Shown here in pieces: positions 3,084 to 57,339 of a DNA stretch of 64,000 nucleotides (position 1 is its first letter; every line of letters starts with the position of its first letter). Location: contig NZ_JGVU02000005.1 of the NCBI RefSeq assembly GCF_000708755.2, positions 62,001 through 126,000 of the forward strand, read 5' to 3'. The notes below the pieces were generated by a model. It saw nothing but the letters and a program-made list of their open reading frames with translations, did not search any database and was not told the DNA's origin. This stretch comes from Metabacillus indicus LMG 22858. Lineage in GTDB: Bacteria; Bacillota; Bacilli; Bacillales; Bacillaceae. The translations under genes were made by a program, and so were the position numbers.

Positions 3084-5603
3084 TTATTCTTCAGTGCCTG
3101 ATGGATCTTCCGGCGGTGCTTCAGTTTCAGAATCCTGAATCTGTTCTTCTGTCAAATCCTCTTCAGGTTCCAGTTCTTCTTTTTCCACTACCGCTACTGT
3201 TGCAACGTGTTCTTCGCCGCCAAGCTTAATCAGCTTGACGCCCTGTGTGTTTCGTCCCGTTGTCGAAATGCTGTCAATTGCCATCCGGATCAGAACGCCG
3301 CTTGCTGTAATCAGCATCAGGTCCTCTTCTCCTGTTGAAGGCTTAACAGATATGACAGTACCGTTCTTTTCGGTTACATTACATGTTTTAATCCCTTTTC
3401 CGCCACGGCTTTGCACGCGGTATTCAGCTGCAGGCGTCCGCTTGCCGAATCCATTTCGCGTGACAGTCAGAACGTCTGCGTCCTCTTCCAGGATCTCCAT
3501 GCCGACAACTTCGTCATCCGCATCAAGCGTAATGCCTTTTACCCCTGTAGCCGTACGGCCCATTGAGCGGACGTCTGTTTCCGGGAAGCGGATCAGCATT
3601 CCCTTTTTCGTTCCGATCATGATGTGTTTCGTTCCGTCCGTCAGCCTTACAGAAATCAGTTCATCTGCCTCGCGCAGATTGACAGCAATCAGGCCGCCTT
3701 TTCTGATGTTGGCAAACTGAGAAAGCGGAGACCGTTTTGAGATTCCTTCTTTCGTTGTGAAGAAGAGAGACCAGTCATCTGCAAATTCCGAAACAGGAAT
3801 GATGGCATTGACCCATTCCCCTTTTTCAATCTCAAGAAGGTTAATGATCGGCAGACCTTTTGCCGTTCTTCCGTACTCAGGAATCTCGTAGCCTTTTGTA
3901 CGGTAAACCTTTCCTTTGTTCGTGAAGAACAGGATCGTGTCGTGGGTTGAAGTTGTGAGCAAATGTTCGACGAAATCATCTTCATTCGTGCCCATTCCCT
4001 GAATTCCGCGTCCGCCCCTTCTCTGGCTTCGGTATGTCGAGATTGGAAGTCTCTTGATATAGCCGTTGTGCGTCAGCGTGATCACGATGTTTTCAACAGG
4101 AATTAAGTCTTCGTCTTCAATCATTTCGATGCCGCCGGTTACAATCTCCGTACGGCGCACATCATTGAAGCGCTCCTTAATTTCTTCAAGCTCCTCGCGG
4201 ATGATTTCAAGAACTTTCTCATCATCTGCAAGAATCGCCTTCAGTTCTGCGATCAGTTGAACAAGACCCTGGTATTCTTCTTCAATCTTTTCGCGCTCAA
4301 GTCCTGTTAAGCGCTGAAGACGCATGTCAAGAATAGCCTGAGCCTGTTTTTCAGAAAGAGAGAAGTTGTCCATCAATCCTTGTTTAGCGATATCTGTTGT
4401 CTGTGAAGCACGGATAAGTGCAATCACTTCATCCAGATGATCAAGAGCAATCCGGAGTCCTTCCAGAATATGCGCACGTGCTTCCGCTTTGCGCAGCTCA
4501 AAGGCTGTGCGGCGGCGGATAATCACCTTTTGATGGTCCAGATAATAGACAAGGAACTGCTTCAGGTTCAGCACCTGAGGCTGTCCGCCTACAAGGGCAA
4601 GCATGTTGATGCCGAAGCTTGTCTGAAGAGCTGTCTGTTTAAAAAGATTGTTCAAAAGGACATTTGAATTTGCATCTTTGCGGACTTCAATGACAATGCG
4701 CATGCCGTTTCGGTCGGATTCGTCTCTTAAGTCTGTAATTCCTTCGATCTTTTTGTCGCGTACAAGCTCTGCAATTTTTTCGATCAGCTTCGCCTTGTTC
4801 ACCTGGTAAGGAAGCTCTCTGACGATAATAACTTCCTTGCCTGACGCTTTTTGTTCAATTTCAACTTTCGCTCTGATGGTGATCGATCCCCGGCCGGTTT
4901 CATACGCTTTGCGGATGCCGCTTCTGCCGATAATCTGTCCTGCAGTAGGGAAGTCCGGGCCCGGAATGATTTCCATCAGCTCCTGTATGCTGACTTCAGG
5001 ATCTTTGCTGACAGCAAGCACCCCGTCGATGACTTCTCCAAGCTGATGAGGCGGAATGTTTGTTGCCATGCCGACAGCAATCCCCGCTGCTCCGTTTACC
5101 AGAAGATTAGGGAACCTTGAAGGAAGCACGACAGGTTCACGTTCAGACCCGTCATAGTTGTCCTGATAATCGATGGTGTCTTTGTTAATATCGCGGAGAA
5201 GCTCCATCGCGATCTTCGACATGCGGGCTTCTGTATAACGCATCGCTGCCGCACCGTCTCCGTCAACTGAACCAAAGTTTCCGTGACCGTCGACAAGCAT
5301 ATAGCGGAAGTTGAAATCCTGTGCCATCCGGACCATAGAGTCATAAACGGCGCTGTCGCCGTGCGGATGATACTTTCCGATTACTTCACCGACGATACGC
5401 GCGGACTTCTTGAAAGGTTTGTCCGATGTCATGCCAAGGTCATTCATCGCGTAGAGAATCCGGCGGTGAACAGGCTTCAGGCCGTCACGAACGTCCGGAA
5501 GAGCGCGCGAAACGATAACGCTCATCGCATAATCTAGAAAAGAAGAACGCATCTCGTGACTGATATTAATCTCTTTCACGTTTGGTGTTTTGTTTTCTTC
5601 CAT
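3084..5603 (-). CDS. gyrA: DNA gyrase subunit A
   Basis: 839 residues; with GyrB it forms the A2B2 type II topoisomerase that introduces negative supercoils. The breakage-reunion domain is N-terminal, with the catalytic tyrosine at Tyr123 ([12 protein letters not shown]). The GyrA box QRRGGRGI, needed for DNA wrapping, lies at the start of the C-terminal beta-pinwheel. The quinolone-resistance region reads HGDSAVYDS, so Ser84 and an acidic residue at 88 are retained, as in susceptible enzymes. An acidic tail ends the protein. A good AGGGAGGTTCAAC ribosome-binding site precedes the ATG. It is separated from gyrB by two unrelated genes, so it must have its own promoter (see 5738). Confidence 0.99.
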
Positions 5604-5737
5604 GAGTTGAACCTCCCTAATCTATCTAGCTCCATAAAAAACGGGAGTTAAAAGTTTTTGTAATGGTGTTCATGCTGAAATATATAAGACCATAAATATG
5701 TAAGTCTTTCCGATAATTGAATAATAGCCTACTCTCC

Positions 5738-5745
5738 ATTATATC
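5738..5745 (-). promoter_or_regulatory. Candidate gyrA promoter (extended -10)
   Basis: On the minus strand TGATATAAT (complement of 5738-5746) is an extended -10 element about 135 bp before gyrA. No good -35 is present at 17 bp spacing. The long leader between it and gyrA shows no structure I recognise. Confidence 0.45.
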
Positions 5746-5800
5746 AATAAACCTATGACATTACACGTCAAATTCATAGAAATATCCCGAAAAACCGAAT

Positions 5801-5824
5801 AATCCCTGCCTTTTCGGCAGGGAT
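5801..5824 (-). terminator. Terminator of the sortase-anchored protein gene
   Basis: A perfect stem ATCCCTGCC/GGCAGGGAT with a short T-rich tract on the minus strand lies about 65 bp after the stop at 5889. It isolates that gene from gyrA. Confidence 0.7.
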
Positions 5825-5888
5825 CACAGTTCTTTTACTCATATTTTTTAAATAAGGCGGGCCTTGCTTAAAACTTCTGCTCGAGCCC

Positions 5889-7262
5889 TTAGTTTTTCAC
5901 TGATTTTTTGCGTGCAATCATGGCGATCGCTGCAGTTGCAAGGATAAATCCGAATACAGCCCACATGATGACACTGCTGTTTGACTGGCTCATGCCGCCC
6001 ATGCCTGTTTTCGGCATGTCAGAAGGCTTTTGCCCCTCAAACTTTTCAGGGAATTGATCTGTAATGGCGCCTGACAGGGCCTGTCCTACTCCGAACATGT
6101 GCGAATAAGCAACATGGATATTTTCATAGGCTGCAGGATAGTCTTTTCCTGTGTAGCTGTTAAATGCCGCGAGAAGCTGGTCTACATGCTCTTTGAGACC
6201 CGCCTCGAGGTCGGCCGCTTTCAGTCTGCCCTCTGTTGCTGCATCAAGGAATGCCGCCTGTTCTGCACGGTATGCATCAAGCTCTGCTACCGCTTCTTCC
6301 TTGCCTGCTTCGTTGTTTTCGGCAGTTGCTGTCACGTAGTCAACAAAGTAGCCGATGTGGCTGCTCCAGATTTCTTTAAATTGTGCAGCACCTTCAGCGC
6401 CGTATACAGATTCAACAGCTGCTGTCAGGTCATCTGTGTTCTCATTTAATGCAGCTGCAGCCGCATCAAAATCTTTTGCTCCGTCAATTCCTTTTTGCAT
6501 CGTAAGTGCCGCAAGTGCTGCATGCTCTGAAAATACGTGATTCAGATCTGCACGCAAGTCAGCAGCGGCAGTATCCGGGGACGTACTTTCGAATTTCTCA
6601 GGGAACTGGTCAGTGATGGCCCATGAAAGGCTTTTGCCGACTCCGAACATATGGTGCATCGATTCTGTTGCATCATCGTAGGCTTTGTCATATTCACCCG
6701 CTCTGTAGCTTTCAAAAGCACCAATCAGCTGTTCAACGTGAACTTTTAGGCCTGCTTCAAGGTCTGCCGCTTTCAAGCGTCCTTCCGTTGCCGTATCCAG
6801 AAAACCCGCTTGCTCGGCGCGGTACTTGTCCAATTCTGCAAGTGCCTGTTTTCTGCCTTCTTCATTGTTTTCAGCTGTTGCCGTTACATAGTCCACGAAA
6901 TAGCCGATGTGGCTGCTCCAGATTTCTTTAAATTGATTTCCCGCTTCTTCACCGTAAACAGATCCGACAGCTGCCGATAAATCTTCTGTATTCTTATTCA
7001 GCTGTCCTGCAGCTGCTTCGAAGTCTTCTTTGCCGTCAATGCCTTTTTGCATCGCAACAACCGCTAAGTATGCATGCTCTGAGAGGATCGCATCAAGGGA
7101 TGCCCGAAGATCAATGGCAGGGTTTGAAACCTCTGCTGATGCCATGCCGCTGTGGCTGCCGCCATGATTTCCTCCATGATCTTCTGCATTCACTGTTCCA
7201 AAAGCGGGAATCAGCAGGGAAAAACTGAGTGGTACAGCAATCAGTGCTTTTTTCATCTTCAT
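5889..7262 (-). CDS. Sortase-anchored wall protein with two tandem His-containing helical repeats
   Basis: 457 residues. The first ~26 residues form a Sec signal peptide ending near NAEDHGG, followed by a His/Gly-rich stretch (HGGNHGGSHSG). Two tandem copies of a ~180-residue helical domain follow (about 50-226 and 235-410). The copies share SEHA, MQKGIDG, QFKEIWSSHIGYFVDYVTA, AEQA, EGRLKAADLEAGLK, MFGVG and ITDQFPEKFE. Each copy keeps histidines in SEHA, SSHIG, HV(E/D)QL and near MFGVG, so a metal- or heme-binding bundle is possible, but that is inference. The C-terminus is a cell-wall sorting signal: MPKTG at 416-420 (LPXTG variant), a hydrophobic span at about 431-450, then RKKS. It lies between gyrA and gyrB, where most Bacillaceae have nothing. 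Function unknown. Confidence 0.85.
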   Translation of the reverse strand: MKMKKALIAVPLSFSLLIPAFGTVNAEDHGGNHGGSHSGMASAEVSNPAIDLRASLDAILSEHAYLAVVAMQKGIDGKEDFEAAAGQLNKNTEDLSAAVGSVYGEEAGNQFKEIWSSHIGYFVDYVTATAENNEEGRKQALAELDKYRAEQAGFLDTATEGRLKAADLEAGLKVHVEQLIGAFESYRAGEYDKAYDDATESMHHMFGVGKSLSWAITDQFPEKFESTSPDTAAADLRADLNHVFSEHAALAALTMQKGIDGAKDFDAAAAALNENTDDLTAAVESVYGAEGAAQFKEIWSSHIGYFVDYVTATAENNEAGKEEAVAELDAYRAEQAAFLDAATEGRLKAADLEAGLKEHVDQLLAAFNSYTGKDYPAAYENIHVAYSHMFGVGQALSGAITDQFPEKFEGQKPSDMPKTGMGGMSQSNSSVIMWAVFGFILATAAIAMIARKKSVKN

Positions 7263-7773: not shown

Positions 7774-9711
<1,938 letters not shown>

Positions 9712-9752: not shown

Positions 9753-10007
9753 TCATTCTGCCGTCTCTATGTCAAATGAGAATTTTGCACGTTTTTTCAG
9801 CGTGCCTGAAGCAAGAGGAGAAAAATAAATCTTGTCTGTCGTCACAACAATCGACTTTGTTTCGCCATTTGCAAGCTTTACCGGCTGATTCTGCTGCTTT
9901 TCCAAAAATTCACTGACGATTCCGGACGTCTTTGACGATTGATGATCAATAATCATGACGACTTCCTTTGAAGGAATCACGAAATTGTCTCCCAAGTGGA
10001 TATACAT
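9753..10007 (-). CDS. remB: Extracellular matrix regulator RemB (DUF370)
   Basis: 84 residues starting MYIHLGDNFVI. It has the short DUF370 sequence with KSIVVTTDKIYFSPLASGTLKKRA, near-identical in layout to B. subtilis YaaB/RemB. RemB and its paralogue RemA influence biofilm matrix genes; RemA binds DNA, the exact role of RemB is less clear. It sits between recF and gyrB as in B. subtilis, 19 bp after recF. Confidence 0.95.
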   Translation of the reverse strand: MYIHLGDNFVIPSKEVVMIIDHQSSKTSGIVSEFLEKQQNQPVKLANGETKSIVVTTDKIYFSPLASGTLKKRAKFSFDIETAE

Positions 10008-45953: not shown

Positions 45954-46433
45954 GTGAACATCACAATTTGCACAATCGGCAAGCTAAAAGAAAAATACCT
46001 GAAACAAGGAATCGACGAATTCCTGAAGCGACTCACACCATACGCCAAAGTCGACATCATCGAACTCCCTGACGAAAAAGCACCCGAAAACCTCAGCGAT
46101 TCCGAAATGGAAATGGTGAAACAAAAAGAAGGAGAACGCATCCTTTCAAAAATTTCCGATGACACCCATGTCATAGCGCTGGCGATCAAAGGGAAAATGA
46201 AATCATCCCAGGAGCTTGCAGCGGATCTCGACCGTCTTGCTACCTATGGAAAGAGTAAAGTGGCGTTTGTCATTGGCGGATCTCTTGGATTGAGTGATGA
46301 GGTGATGAAGAGAGCGAATGATACCCTGTCCTTTTCGAAAATGACGTTTCCGCATCAGTTGATGAGATTGATTTTGGTGGAGCAGGTGTATCGAGCTTTT
46401 AGGATTAATCGGGGGGAGCCGTATCATAAGTAA
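45954..46433 (+). CDS. rlmH: 23S rRNA pseudouridine1915 N3-methyltransferase RlmH
   Basis: 159 residues, GTG start ([16 protein letters not shown]). SPOUT knot with [13 protein letters not shown] (about 101-113) and the C-terminal [17 protein letters not shown]. It methylates Psi1915 in helix 69 of 23S rRNA. The last codons (GGGAGCCGTATCATAAG, 46414-46430) are the attachment site used by SCC elements in staphylococci. An AT-rich accessory block begins right after the stop codon. Confidence 0.97.
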
Positions 46434-46446
46434 GTGCGGTTTTTAA
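46414..46446. repeat. Putative SCC-like att (DR1) and inverted repeat 1
   Basis: GGGAGCCGTATCATAAG (46414-46430) followed by TAAGTGCGGTTTTTAA (46431-46446). It matches in pattern the known staphylococcal rlmH attachment region (TATCATAA..TGA followed by TGCGGTTTTT). The second half is repeated inverted at 47931-47947. Confidence 0.6.
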
Positions 46447-46471
46447 ATTTCACAATTAAATTTAGATAAAG

Positions 46472-46507
46472 AACAGTCTACCGAAATTAAATTGGTAGGC
46501 TGTTTTA
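46472..46507 (+). terminator. Terminator between rlmH and the accessory operon
   Basis: AACAGTCTACC (46472-46482) pairs with GGTAGGCTGTT (46494-46504) with T-rich tail. It shields the accessory genes from rlmH transcription, or belongs to the inserted element. Confidence 0.8.
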
Positions 46508-46545
46508 ATTTTAATTGGTATAATTTTCTATGGAGGGGTGTTTAT

Positions 46546-47262
46546 ATGGATTTTTTAACTTCAACAATATTGGCTGGGTTAGCCTGGGATGGTATTAAAT
46601 ATGCAGGCAATCTTACGTCGCAATACCTTAAAGGAAAATTGGAAGAGTGGATTATAGATGATAAACAATTAGAGACGATAGTTTCTAAGATTAATGAACT
46701 TCCTGATGCATATAAAAAGAATGAAAAGTTTTTAGGTTTAGCTATCCAAGAAGATGAAGATTTACAAGGAGTATTAAGAGAAATTCAATCTAAAAGTAAT
46801 AATAGTGTTGAAATTAAGGATTCATTTATAGAAGGAAGTACCATTAATAATGCGATTGGTGGATCTACAATTAACAGTTCAACTACTAATAATTATTATG
46901 GTTCTCACTCAAATACTGAAAAAAAAACTAGGCTACAAGTAAAAGGTGAATTAGATTTACTTTTATCTGAAAACGCAGCAGTATTTAAAATGTATGGTCC
47001 TACACCAGAAAATACTGCTGATTTAACCACTAGAAAACATGAAGCATGGAGGAGTATGGCATTAAAGTTTATTGTGCCTAATAATGATAGGATAATCACC
47101 CTATTGAATGAAAATATAGACTTAATGAACTTTGAAGAAAAAATGATATTTATGGAATTCAAATTACATGCTGAAGGTTTTAAAGATAATCAAAATAGGA
47201 GCAATAGGATTGCAGAATACCCTAAGTTTCCGATTTCTATAAATAACATTCTAGGAGGGTAA
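46546..47262 (+). CDS. Unknown accessory protein with Asn/Ser/Thr/Gly linker
   Basis: 238 residues from ATG 46546, 8 bp after GGAGGGG. The N-terminal ~70 residues are helical (AGLAWDGIKYAGNLTSQYLKGKLEEW). A linker near 95-122 reads like a beta-solenoid or trimer tail (GSTINNAIGGSTINSS, TNNYYG); similar linkers join modules in bacterial multidomain defence or signalling proteins. The C-terminal ~110 residues are helical with conserved-looking VPNNDRIITLLNEN and FKLHAEGF. I do not recognise the family. First gene of a three-gene AT-rich operon, 4 bp before the next gene. Confidence 0.7.
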   Translation: MDFLTSTILAGLAWDGIKYAGNLTSQYLKGKLEEWIIDDKQLETIVSKINELPDAYKKNEKFLGLAIQEDEDLQGVLREIQSKSNNSVEIKDSFIEGSTINNAIGGSTINSSTTNNYYGSHSNTEKKTRLQVKGELDLLLSENAAVFKMYGPTPENTADLTTRKHEAWRSMALKFIVPNNDRIITLLNENIDLMNFEEKMIFMEFKLHAEGFKDNQNRSNRIAEYPKFPISINNILGG

Positions 47263-47266
47263 AAAA

Positions 47267-47653
47267 ATGGAGTATGGAGAAAGAGTTATAAATCCACTAC
47301 CTCAAGGTGTAAGACAATTAGTTGAGAGACTATTAATAAAACCAACTGTAGAAGATGTAGATTATATTAATCATCAAATTTTAAAAGTTATTAGGAAAGC
47401 GCCACATGAAAATTTGATGATTTATGTTGTAGACGCATATGTTTTAGGAGAAGGAGATACATTTGAAATAATTAGGGATAATCCAACTATTGATACTATT
47501 CTAGTACTTAGTCTTTGGAATCAATATACATGTGATGCAAAGAATTTAGCTAAAGAACATGGAGTAGCTGTATTTACATACTCTGAATTAATGGGAGCTG
47601 TATATTACCATGGTAGAGCATTTTTGGATTACATGCCTCCAGAAAGAGATTAA
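47267..47653 (+). CDS. Unknown accessory protein, alpha/beta fold
   Basis: 128 residues with an excellent AGGAGGG site. It has alternating strands and helices: MIYVVDAYVLGEGDTFEII, then TILVLSLWNQYTCDAKNLAKEHGVAVFTYSELMGAV. This last part resembles the final strand-helix-strand of restriction-endonuclease-like or Rossmann-like domains, but no ExK or other catalytic motif is complete. Function unknown. It overlaps the nucleotidyltransferase gene by 44 bp in another frame. Confidence 0.65.
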   Translation: MEYGERVINPLPQGVRQLVERLLIKPTVEDVDYINHQILKVIRKAPHENLMIYVVDAYVLGEGDTFEIIRDNPTIDTILVLSLWNQYTCDAKNLAKEHGVAVFTYSELMGAVYYHGRAFLDYMPPERD

Positions 47654-47933
47654 AAAAAATAATAAACTACTTTTTTTAATAGAAAATGAACAAATGAGAA
47701 TTTTTCTTTTTGGTTCAGCTAAAAATAATAAATCTCCAAATGATTTAGATTTACTACTAACATATAACAATGAAGTAATCTCTTTAGAAGAAATTTCTAA
47801 AATCAAAAAAGAATTAAAAACCTATTTTTATAGCTTAGATTTAGGTATTACAATAGACTTACTATTTTTATCTTATATAGAAGAAAGGCAAATAAGTTTT
47901 GTTAGAAAAGAATGCGCTTTAAAAATATATTAA
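47610..47933 (+). CDS. Minimal nucleotidyltransferase (MNT-like)
   Basis: 107 residues from the first ATG of the frame; a start at ATG 47695 would still keep the motif. The pol-beta type signature is clear: FLFGSAKNNKSPNDLDLLL (GS...DLD) and a third acidic residue in ITIDLLFLS. Family members transfer nucleotides to proteins or RNA, often as antitoxins beside a HEPN toxin (MntA-HepT). No HEPN motif (RxxxxxH) is visible in either partner here. Its stop codon lies in inverted repeat 2, so it is the last gene of the cassette. Confidence 0.75.
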   Translation: MVEHFWITCLQKEIKKNNKLLFLIENEQMRIFLFGSAKNNKSPNDLDLLLTYNNEVISLEEISKIKKELKTYFYSLDLGITIDLLFLSYIEERQISFVRKECALKIY

Positions 47934-47972
47934 AAAACCGCACTTACAAATATCACGGAGAGCCTTATAAGC
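47931..47972. repeat. Inverted repeat 2 and degenerate att (DR2)
   Basis: TTAAAAAACCGCACTTA (47931-47947) is the reverse complement of inverted repeat 1 apart from one extra T. GGAGAGCCTTATAAG (47958-47972) is a degenerate direct copy of the rlmH end, still readable as HGEPYK against RGEPYHK. This order (IR then DR) is the distal end layout of SCC elements. Confidence 0.55.
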
Positions 47973-48054
47973 CAGAATGTACAATGGAGATTAACATTAT
48001 TAAAAATTAGCACGGAAGTATGGCAAATTTAAGTTGGATTTATCTTCTATATTC

Positions 48055-48102
48055 TTACCTTTATCTTTAACCTTTTATTTATGAGGTTAAAGATAAAGGT
48101 AA
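48055..48102. promoter_or_regulatory. 18-bp perfect inverted repeat upstream of the 290-residue gene
   Basis: TTACCTTTATCTTTAACC (48055-48072) and its exact complement (48085-48102) flank a 12-nt loop. It ends 25 bp before the TTG start. It has no T-run, so it is not a normal terminator. It may be an operator, an RNA hairpin that hides the ribosome-binding region, or a protein target. Confidence 0.8.
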
Positions 48103-48127
48103 TGAATGTGTTAAAGGATGATTTTAA

Positions 48128-49000
48128 TTGTTAGGAGCAAAATTAGCTTATTTAATTTCGGAGCTTATTTCAAATATTGACCAAAACTGTAGAAACGATT
48201 TGACTGAGAAATTATTAGTGTCAGAAAGAGACTATGTTTCTCGACTTACCACCCATATTACATATCCGTTTGGCCCTTGGTTTCCAAAATTAGCTTATAC
48301 AGTTGCCCAAACGTTGCCCCCAAACTTTGAACAAAAGTTTGGGGCTGATGCAGTATTAATCTTTAAATCAAATAATGTAGCCAAGATTGGAATGTTTGAA
48401 TCTAAATGGCCTAGAGTAATTGTGAACCCAAGCTACAAATGGGATGATTTAAGGGATAAAGGGAAACCGAGTACAGTATTTAAATTATTTTCTCACTTTA
48501 CAGACCAAATTATTAGACAGAATAATTGGACAAATGAAGTGGCAATATGGGAAATGTTTTTCTATGAAGGTATTCAGGGTACATATACCCATGGATTTAA
48601 TCGTCGTGGATCTTCCTGTTTTTGGAGTGATGAGGCATTTAATTATGTAAAAAGTAATTGGGCACATTTTACACATAATTATTGGGAAATATCAGATTTA
48701 AATTATCTTTTTACAAATGGAGGAAGGAGGAAATACAGTGAGAATTTGCAAAAAATGGTCTATAAAATTTTACTTTGTGAAAAAGGGAAAAGACTCCCAA
48801 TAGACATTTACAATTCTGAATGCAAGTTAAAAGGACGTGATGGTCGAGTAATTATTGTTCCGTTACCTATAATGTTTAATAAGAACAATGATAGCACTAA
48901 GGATAACATTAATAAAATAAATGATATTCACACCTTTATGTTAAGAAATGGTGTTTCATTCTACATATATATAGATTTAGATTTAATTTTTAATTCATAG
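48128..49000 (+). CDS. Putative PD-(D/E)xK nuclease-like accessory protein
   Basis: 290 residues, TTG start after AAAGGATG. A short helix ends in SERDYVSRL (Glu33); then FGADAVLIF (Asp74) and IGMFESKWP (Glu91, Lys93) give the E...D...ExK layout of restriction-endonuclease-fold enzymes. The remainder is rich in aromatic residues and ends with several Asp. No methyltransferase is nearby. A/T content is much higher than in the core genes, so it is probably acquired. Family not recognised; nuclease role is inference from the motif. Confidence 0.65.
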   Translation: MLGAKLAYLISELISNIDQNCRNDLTEKLLVSERDYVSRLTTHITYPFGPWFPKLAYTVAQTLPPNFEQKFGADAVLIFKSNNVAKIGMFESKWPRVIVNPSYKWDDLRDKGKPSTVFKLFSHFTDQIIRQNNWTNEVAIWEMFFYEGIQGTYTHGFNRRGSSCFWSDEAFNYVKSNWAHFTHNYWEISDLNYLFTNGGRRKYSENLQKMVYKILLCEKGKRLPIDIYNSECKLKGRDGRVIIVPLPIMFNKNNDSTKDNINKINDIHTFMLRNGVSFYIYIDLDLIFNS

Positions 49001-49082
49001 AAAATATTAACCTATTTTCTTTCGCTGATATACCGTTGGTACGGTAAACTGTATGATAAATAAATTTATCTTTATTAAAAAA

Positions 49083-49123
49083 ACGTACTAAAGAACACCC
49101 CGCTGTTCTTGGTACGTCTTTTA
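49083..49123. terminator. Hairpin of the GTACC-AAAGAAC family (copy 1)
   Basis: ACGTACTAAAGAACA pairs with TGTTCTTGGTACGT around CCCCGC, then CTTTTAT. Near-identical hairpins stand at 49982-50024 and 57284-57323. Confidence 0.75.
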
Positions 49124-49157
49124 TATTGTGTCTACCTTAGCACTTCTCACAACCCAA

Positions 49158-49215: not shown

Positions 49216-49338
49216 CCTTAGCAACGAGTTTCTTACATAATATTAACCCCTTCGGCCACCATAAAAAAGTTTTTTCAACGCAAAAAAGATGCCTTCCCGT
49301 TATTTTGGAAAAGCACCCAAGGTAATTGCTTGGCCTCC

Positions 49339-49860: not shown

Positions 49861-49981
49861 TTCCCTCCTATTGTCATTTTTAGGTTTAGCATATGTTTTC
49901 TAATCAGTATGGTGTAAGGACATCTTATGGTTTTATAACCAATTAAAACAAGACATTTATGTATGATTTTAGCGATGATAA

Positions 49982-50024
49982 AAGAAGAACCAAGAACATC
50001 CCAACGTTCTTGGTCCTTCTTTTT
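49982..50024. terminator. Hairpin of the same family (copy 2)
   Basis: AAGAAGAACCAAGAAC pairs with GTTCTTGGTCCTTCTT, with A and T tracts on the two sides. It can terminate in both directions. The adjoining CCCCTCCGGCAACCATAAAAAGG (50037-50059) is also repeated near 49246-49269. Confidence 0.8.
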
Positions 50025-57233: not shown

Positions 57234-57283
57234 GAAAGGAACAACTTGTCAGCTTAGCAAGTATATGCAGGGAATCAACTAAA

Positions 57284-57323
57284 AAGAAGTACCAAAGAAC
57301 ACTCAATGTTCATGGTACTTCTT
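57284..57323. terminator. MFS gene terminator, hairpin family copy 3
   Basis: AAGAAGTACCAAAGAACA pairs with TGTTCATGGTACTTCTT (one mismatch). It sits just beyond the MFS stop (minus strand). Confidence 0.85.
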
Positions 57324-57339
57324 TTAAATTTATAATCCT

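Follow-up and report, generated by a model that had tools for sequence, protein, structure and literature searches.

A short AT-rich stretch directly behind rlmH in Metabacillus indicus LMG 22858 carries three genes which recur in the same order across phyla. We assign a probability of about two thirds to the joint reading that this stretch is an SCC-type mini-cassette lacking a recombinase and that its operon is a modular, defence-like three-gene system. The analysis was performed in a window, i.e. the whole stretch of 64,000 nucleotides taken from contig NZ_JGVU02000005.1, and the features concerned are collected in Table 1. According to this reading, the mini-cassette would have integrated at the 3′ end of rlmH, probably with a large serine recombinase supplied in trans, would hold the compact, immune-like trio as its sole cargo and would have been stranded later by loss of core bases at attR.

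Table 1. Features of the cassette region and its right flank (positions in the window)
Feature	Position	Strand	Basis
rlmH, host gene and docking site	45954..46433	+	PF02590 (E 1.6e-58); open reading frame
attL, left direct repeat GGGGAGCCGTATCATAAGTAA, core TATCATAA intact	46413..46433	+	sequence; matrix built from rlmH ends
Left inverted repeat TAAGTGCGGTTTTTAA	46431..46446	+	sequence; shuffles; genome-wide count
Gene 1: HetE-N domain (aa 1-91) joined by a low-complexity linker to the constant, predicted helical C-terminal domain (46915-47259)	46546..47262	+	PF20701 (E 2.3e-29); alignments; model
Gene 2: small alpha/beta protein of predicted restriction-endonuclease-like topology, no conserved nuclease motif	47267..47653	+	model; weak fold matches; alignment; no Pfam match
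Gene 3: putative minimal nucleotidyltransferase, GSX8DXD, 107 aa, overlapping gene 2	47610..47933	+	PF01909; PF18765; motif alignment
Right inverted repeat TTAAAAAACCGCACTTA	47930..47946	-	sequence; genome-wide count
attR, degenerate right direct repeat GGAGAGCCTTATAAG, core bases CAT missing	47957..47971	+	register with relatives; sequence
Possible second, decayed cassette with one 290-aa open reading frame (48128-49000)	47972..49042		GC 0.306; open reading frame; no left repeat seen; weak case
Outer att-like site GGTAAACTGTATGATAAATAA	49043..49063	+	score 7.45 against a null maximum of 7.40 (1,466,236 positions); marginal

The three genes and their relatives

Gene 1 starts at an ATG inside a longer listed open reading frame. 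Its constant C-terminal domain was modelled as helical with confidence, and the model of the HetE-N part was poor. The GapS6a family NF047935 matched residues 1-87 with 81.4 bits, below its cut-off of 90. HetE-N is not known to have an activity that such comparisons could assess. A fold search with gene 1 returned a best E-value of 1.5, and the HepT-MntA chain among the matches (E 9.2) carries no evidential weight.

Modelling of gene 2 (pLDDT 90.6) yielded the order helix, three strands, helix, strand, helix, strand. The best PDB matches in the fold search were RPB5 chains and Tk-TIP26, with E-values of 0.016-0.13, none of which reached 0.001; these proteins presumably share the restriction-endonuclease-like fold. 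Because neither an acidic nor a lysine column is conserved in the gene 2 alignment (A7), the gene probably encodes a pseudo-nuclease, i.e. a protein with a predicted nuclease fold and without nuclease residues.

Gene 3 was matched by PF01909 with 21.5 bits (cut-off 21) and by PF18765 with 26.0 bits (cut-off 26.9), and a PDB profile search found nucleotidyltransferases at E 1.6e-4. The residues GS and DXD and a later E are kept in 25 of 25 aligned sequences; catalysis by this protein is not certain, since the third catalytic acid varies. For the constant domain and gene 2, the PDB profile searches gave nothing usable; in the proteins scanned, neither of the two was matched significantly by Pfam, NCBIfam, PADLOC or PHROGs. 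Some matches of HNH models cover about 20 residues of the constant domain as well, and a single weak PHROG match (E 2.4e-4) reaches further. None of the three window genes matched PHROGs at 0.01, and the phage search produced a single weak match, to the HNH half.

Scanning the collection of genome contigs for the constant domain revealed 20 loci, which span Bacillota, Bacteroidota, Pseudomonadota, Akkermansiaceae and Acidobacteriaceae. The trio order was found in all 20, once with an interrupted gene, and profiles recovered all three parts in order in 18. At locus L129 gene 3 was missed by the rule for open reading frames and its motif follows gene 2; at L114 gene 2 is split by about 2.3 kb of inserted DNA holding a long open reading frame, transposase-like by eye, and gene 3 follows. 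Gene 2 was matched in two stretches at six loci (L110, L115, L123, L124, L129 and L130). The trio additionally occurs in genomes G355, G359 and G517, on two plasmids and on one viral contig, and in G492 genes 1 and 2 apparently form one protein of 382 aa (constant domain E 3.4e-10; gene 2 fragments E 1.4e-4; HNH by eye). Across 21 non-redundant loci the distances of the parts correlate with each other (r 0.67, 0.40 and 0.41; 0 of 5000 permutations each), to which relatedness of the hosts partly contributes.

What precedes the constant domain differs between loci; the effector domain scan covered part of the effectors. A calcineurin-like phosphoesterase was identified by Pfam in L103 (the same as G305) and L113, and by near-identical or aligned sequence in G068, G359, G229 and G284. 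The HNH version was found by Pfam in G282, in a protein of a Vibrio plasmid (a match close to the cut-off) and at eight collection loci (some below the cut-offs), and is annotated on a Klebsiella plasmid, while the TIR/SEFIR version comes from one Lachnospiraceae locus. This comparison shows gene 1 to be composed of an interchangeable N-terminal domain, a putative effector (HetE-N, HNH, phosphoesterase or TIR/SEFIR), and the constant, predicted helical domain.

Two candidates were rejected: a match in G605, in which HetE-N precedes a different C-terminal part, was excluded from the system, and a gene 2 match in G381 was dropped, its open reading frame being read by eye as a metallo-hydrolase. 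On the viral contig L111, the open reading frame at 4244-5359, next to the HNH trio at 5656-6971, is phage-capsid-like by eye. Directly after the G282 trio, a P-loop open reading frame (L107, 9104-11128) is NACHT-like by eye. The flanks of loci away from rlmH showed few restriction and candidate-defence matches among the best 25 of 101 families, and Pfam was uninformative for these flanks among the best 25 of 96 families. No description of the trio was recognised in the open-access literature searched, which is no proof of absence, and searches for text on GAPS6 gave nothing relevant either.

Possible modes of action

The effectors and the mobile context suggest that the trio may be a defence system; the scarcity of defence matches in flanks away from rlmH speaks against this. 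The sequence-only reading had considered a new defence or toxin-antitoxin system, and the conserved trio with effectors differing across phyla supports this as a candidate function.

MntA nucleotidylates HepT. A gate model can be drawn from MntA and Hailong, in which gene 2 and the nucleotidyltransferase would act on the constant domain and keep the effector inactive, perhaps by nucleotidylating this domain, as MntA does with HepT. Gene 2 might detect infection on nucleic acid, or loss of the modification might signal it, and the effector thereby released would kill or stall the cell. Taken alone, this gate mechanism is rather unlikely.

A plain toxin-antitoxin system of the HEPN/MNT type would explain the operon differently: gene 1 would be the toxin, the nucleotidyltransferase would be the antitoxin modifying it, and stabilisation of the cassette would be the main function with defence at most a by-product. 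The small nucleotidyltransferase with GS and DXD in all 25 sequences, the overlap of genes 2 and 3 and the mobile context are compatible with such a system, but three parts instead of two, and interchangeable effectors which match those of the CBASS type, argue against it. Moreover, type VII HEPN/MNT systems combine a HEPN protein carrying RX4-6H with an MntA match above the cut-off, whereas the trio gave no HEPN family match and 14.3 bits with the MntA model (cut-off 60). We regard this explanation as unlikely.

Signalling similar to CBASS, in which a nucleotide messenger made by gene 3 would bind the constant domain of gene 1 and activate the effector, with gene 2 as regulator, appears improbable. 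Gene 3 has just 107 aa, matches minimal nucleotidyltransferases and varies in the third acid, and the constant domain has neither a SAVED match nor a known ligand-binding match. In its favour are the presence of a nucleotidyltransferase in the operon and the similarity of the effectors to those of CBASS, of which the HNH domain is shared with the SAVED_HNH model (E 4.7e-31) and the phosphoesterase with an Effector model (E 5.8e-72).

The cassette and the rlmH site

The proposed cassette has a GC content of 28% (0.283 versus 0.451 for the window), extends from 46431 at the rlmH stop codon to 47964 and has ends of the SCC type. The sequence-only reading had described an AT-rich operon of three genes between inverted repeats, with a degenerate direct copy of the rlmH end outside; all these elements are present (Table 1), the start of the right inverted repeat lying one base from where it had been placed. 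The stop codon of rlmH is located inside the left inverted repeat and that of gene 3 inside the right one. The cassette shares with SCC elements its position at the rlmH 3′ end and the presence of both direct and inverted repeats, the right direct repeat being degenerate: SCC elements have the TATCATAA core intact at both ends, whereas here it is intact at attL and reads TTAT-AAG at attR.

Shuffling and a genome-wide count of the repeats led us to reject chance as their origin. The inverted match of 14/14 was obtained in 0 of 2000 first-order Markov shuffles of the same stretch (best shuffle 13, once), and TAAGTGCGGTTTTT has no further perfect copy elsewhere in the 4.1-Mb genome. AAGTGCGGTTTTTWA occurs perfectly at two places in the 4.13-Mb genome, which are both cassette ends in inverted orientation, and at one additional place with a mismatch; at up to one mismatch, a control pattern of the same size gave equal counts. 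The attR of the window remains below the matrix threshold (no match at 9 or above) and was recognised by its register and sequence. Its distance to the inverted repeat is that found in 23 of the 25 right ends of relatives carrying the repeat CC[TGC]CA[TC]TT (62 att copies scoring 15 or more were compared, 25 with this repeat and 37 without), and its AAACCGCACTTA is identical at one right end of G059.

Relatives across the family have this docking site at rlmH, with the repeats in the same order and at the same spacing, which bears out the earlier description as SCC-like. The cassette was also thought to be non-autonomous, and in agreement with this three other open reading frames fill it, none of them a ccr recombinase gene. 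A search for such a recombinase elsewhere in the genome (100% complete, 22 contigs) gave no match to PF07508 (large serine recombinase), and the sole PF00239 match was a 246-aa open frame on a different contig. Since the genome is without a large serine recombinase match and core bases of attR are lost, the cassette looks stranded. A passage of PMC6222049, citing earlier work, names the C of TATCATAA as the only nucleotide whose substitution abolishes the function of SCCmec CcrAB; provided that a Bacillales recombinase shares this need, as we suppose, the cassette is probably immobile.

An empty site, proposed earlier as proof of insertion, did not turn up among the family rlmH flanks examined (G006, G002 and G004); the nearest relative, G006, has two other att copies after rlmH, and its homology with the window resumes at 49336. 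Conservation of the genes throughout the genus, which had been named as an argument against insertion, was not observed: gene 1 is present in one of seven genomes of the genus and in two of 80 of the family, counting a partial match, and on these counts a native operon after rlmH was rejected. Highly improbable, too, is that the stretch is no SCC-type cassette but inserted DNA of a transposon-like kind, or native DNA whose repeats arose by chance, readings with which the short inverted repeats, the missing recombinase and the lack of an empty site among the flanks examined would agree, but not the exact rlmH site with its register kept, the recurrence at rlmH in other families, the absence from nearly all family genomes and the presence of just two perfect repeat copies in the genome.

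To the right of the cassette, the att-like site at 49043, itself marginal, hints at a further cassette that has decayed. Its 290-aa open reading frame was matched in four of 397 genomes of the order, M. indicus included, two of these matches being weak; the homolog in G228 (37%) has an internal stop and no rlmH within the 20 kb read. The frame was rejected as a fourth gene of the system, since in G355 the third gene is the last one before the cassette end. Short, mutually similar stretches at 49077-49148, 49980-50024 and 57277-57334, terminator-like by eye, also occur in the relatives' loci and are perhaps a dispersed repeat.

The recurrence of the operon at rlmH in other families is new beyond the sequence-only reading. 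Of 12 loci from the class Bacilli, six are found no more than 5 kb downstream of rlmH, namely those of M. indicus, G355, G359, G284 (whose contig is also that of Peribacillus cavernae L112), G517 and G492. For the trios of G305, G229, G282 and G068, rlmH is far off or on another contig; L113 has no rlmH in its 16 kb of available sequence, and L119 offers little upstream sequence for scoring rlmH. Apart from the window, two of these six loci have a cassette of 1.6-2.1 kb at rlmH in which the trio is the sole content. The HetE-N trio of G355, whose gene 2 is 54% identical to that of the window, is bounded on reversed L102 by an att copy at 7192 (score 27.6) and by a right end near position 8824; this right end scores 5.4, below the null maximum, and was recognised by an inverted repeat in register and a one-base gap. 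The phosphoesterase trio of P. cavernae lies on the other strand, between rlmH and an att copy at 9759 (score 19.2; core TATAATAA) of reversed L106, given an inner start codon.

A position matrix built from rlmH ends was used to scan about 20 kb downstream of rlmH, less on some shorter contigs, in 79 relatives of the family. It detected 70 further att copies with a score of at least 9 in 41 of the 79 and none at 9 in the window itself; the null scan gave 0 at a score of 8 or above among 1,466,236 reverse-strand positions. In this family, rlmH is a hotspot for such copies. At a score of 12 or more, 63 complete att-to-att intervals were found in relatives, 13 of them under 2 kb, and two of these 13 had no open reading frame of 90 aa. 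Cargo was scanned for 115 of 122 open reading frames from 48 intervals of up to 7 kb. Among the best 25 of 182 families, PADLOC matched LmuB (4e-207), Avs4 (E = 0), ThsA (4.1e-188), a type II methyltransferase (4.2e-228) and NsnA (1.8e-63), and Pfam indicated DNA-repair, signalling and transport genes too. Short rlmH cassettes of relatives hold defence genes (Lamassu, Avs, Thoeris and restriction), by which we claim presence and not enrichment. On contig L063 (G051), an array of seven att copies lies in the 16.1 kb after rlmH, at intervals of 1.1-4.5 kb. On L024 (G012), rlmH recurs about 10.3 kb further downstream as a partial copy (84 aa matched), which is accompanied by an intact att copy.

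Large serine recombinases are present in the family, with PF07508 matches in 51 of 80 genomes; 15 genomes are listed with one or two such matches within 26 kb downstream of rlmH. Five of these 15 genomes (G018, G034, G053, G056 and G065) have a match about 1.1 kb after rlmH, and four of the five have another at about 2.7 kb. In the five flanks, TAGAGGCAAAAA comes after rlmH, a repeat class different from that of the window, and the repeat class seems to go with the recombinase type.

A wider proposal, which we hold tentatively and at somewhat less than even odds, combines these features into a phylum-spanning immune system of three components, with interchangeable killers (HetE-N, HNH, phosphoesterase and TIR/SEFIR), the constant helical domain as receiver, the pseudo-nuclease as sensor and the minimal nucleotidyltransferase as gate. 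Within the Bacilli, this system would be the sole cargo of recombinase-less cassettes of 1.5-2 kb, loaded in trans by Ccr-type recombinases into integron-like rlmH arrays for single defence operons. If true, a widespread immune-like system, both constant domains of which are without significant library match, becomes directly testable, and at least four natural effector versions could be used for domain swaps. The rlmH site outside staphylococci would then be a cassette array storing small defence operons, with a bearing on the origin of SCC cargo and the spread of recombinase-less cassettes.

Comparison with known systems

Like HepT/MntA and Hailong, the trio has a small nucleotidyltransferase beside an effector; it differs from them in having three genes and in its low scores, which for HalB amount to 17.2 of 190 bits (Vibrio homolog) and for MntA are given above. 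With GapS6a of GAPS6, gene 1 has the HetE-N domain in common, but the match stays below the curated cut-off and the C-terminal part differs. GapS6b has a PIN domain; no PIN partner was seen beside gene 1, and the Pfam, PADLOC and NCBIfam scans gave no match to a GapS6b partner.

The N-terminal domains of CBASS effectors (HNH-SAVED, phosphoesterase and TIR) are homologous to those in gene 1 relatives. The trio differs from CBASS by another constant domain in place of SAVED, a 107-aa nucleotidyltransferase in place of the CD-NTase and the extra gene 2, and PADLOC found neither a CD-NTase nor a cyclic-nucleotide sensor (SAVED) in the three window genes.

Compared with SCC-type elements, the window cassette is small (1.5 kb with three cargo genes), has neither a recombinase nor a helicase gene, has lost the attR core and resides in a genome where no recombinase was matched elsewhere. 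Elements of this kind are known, since rlmH islands that carry large serine recombinases have been described in Bacillus and others, with tandem composites and conflict cargo among their features (PMC10061031). SCC and pseudo-SCC elements, the Enterococcus cassette chromosome (PMC6222049) and the rlmH islands (PMC10061031) have in common with the window cassette the site at the 3′ end of rlmH and a core of the TATCATAA type, and they are also alike in their inverted and direct repeats, tandem composites and conflict-gene cargo.
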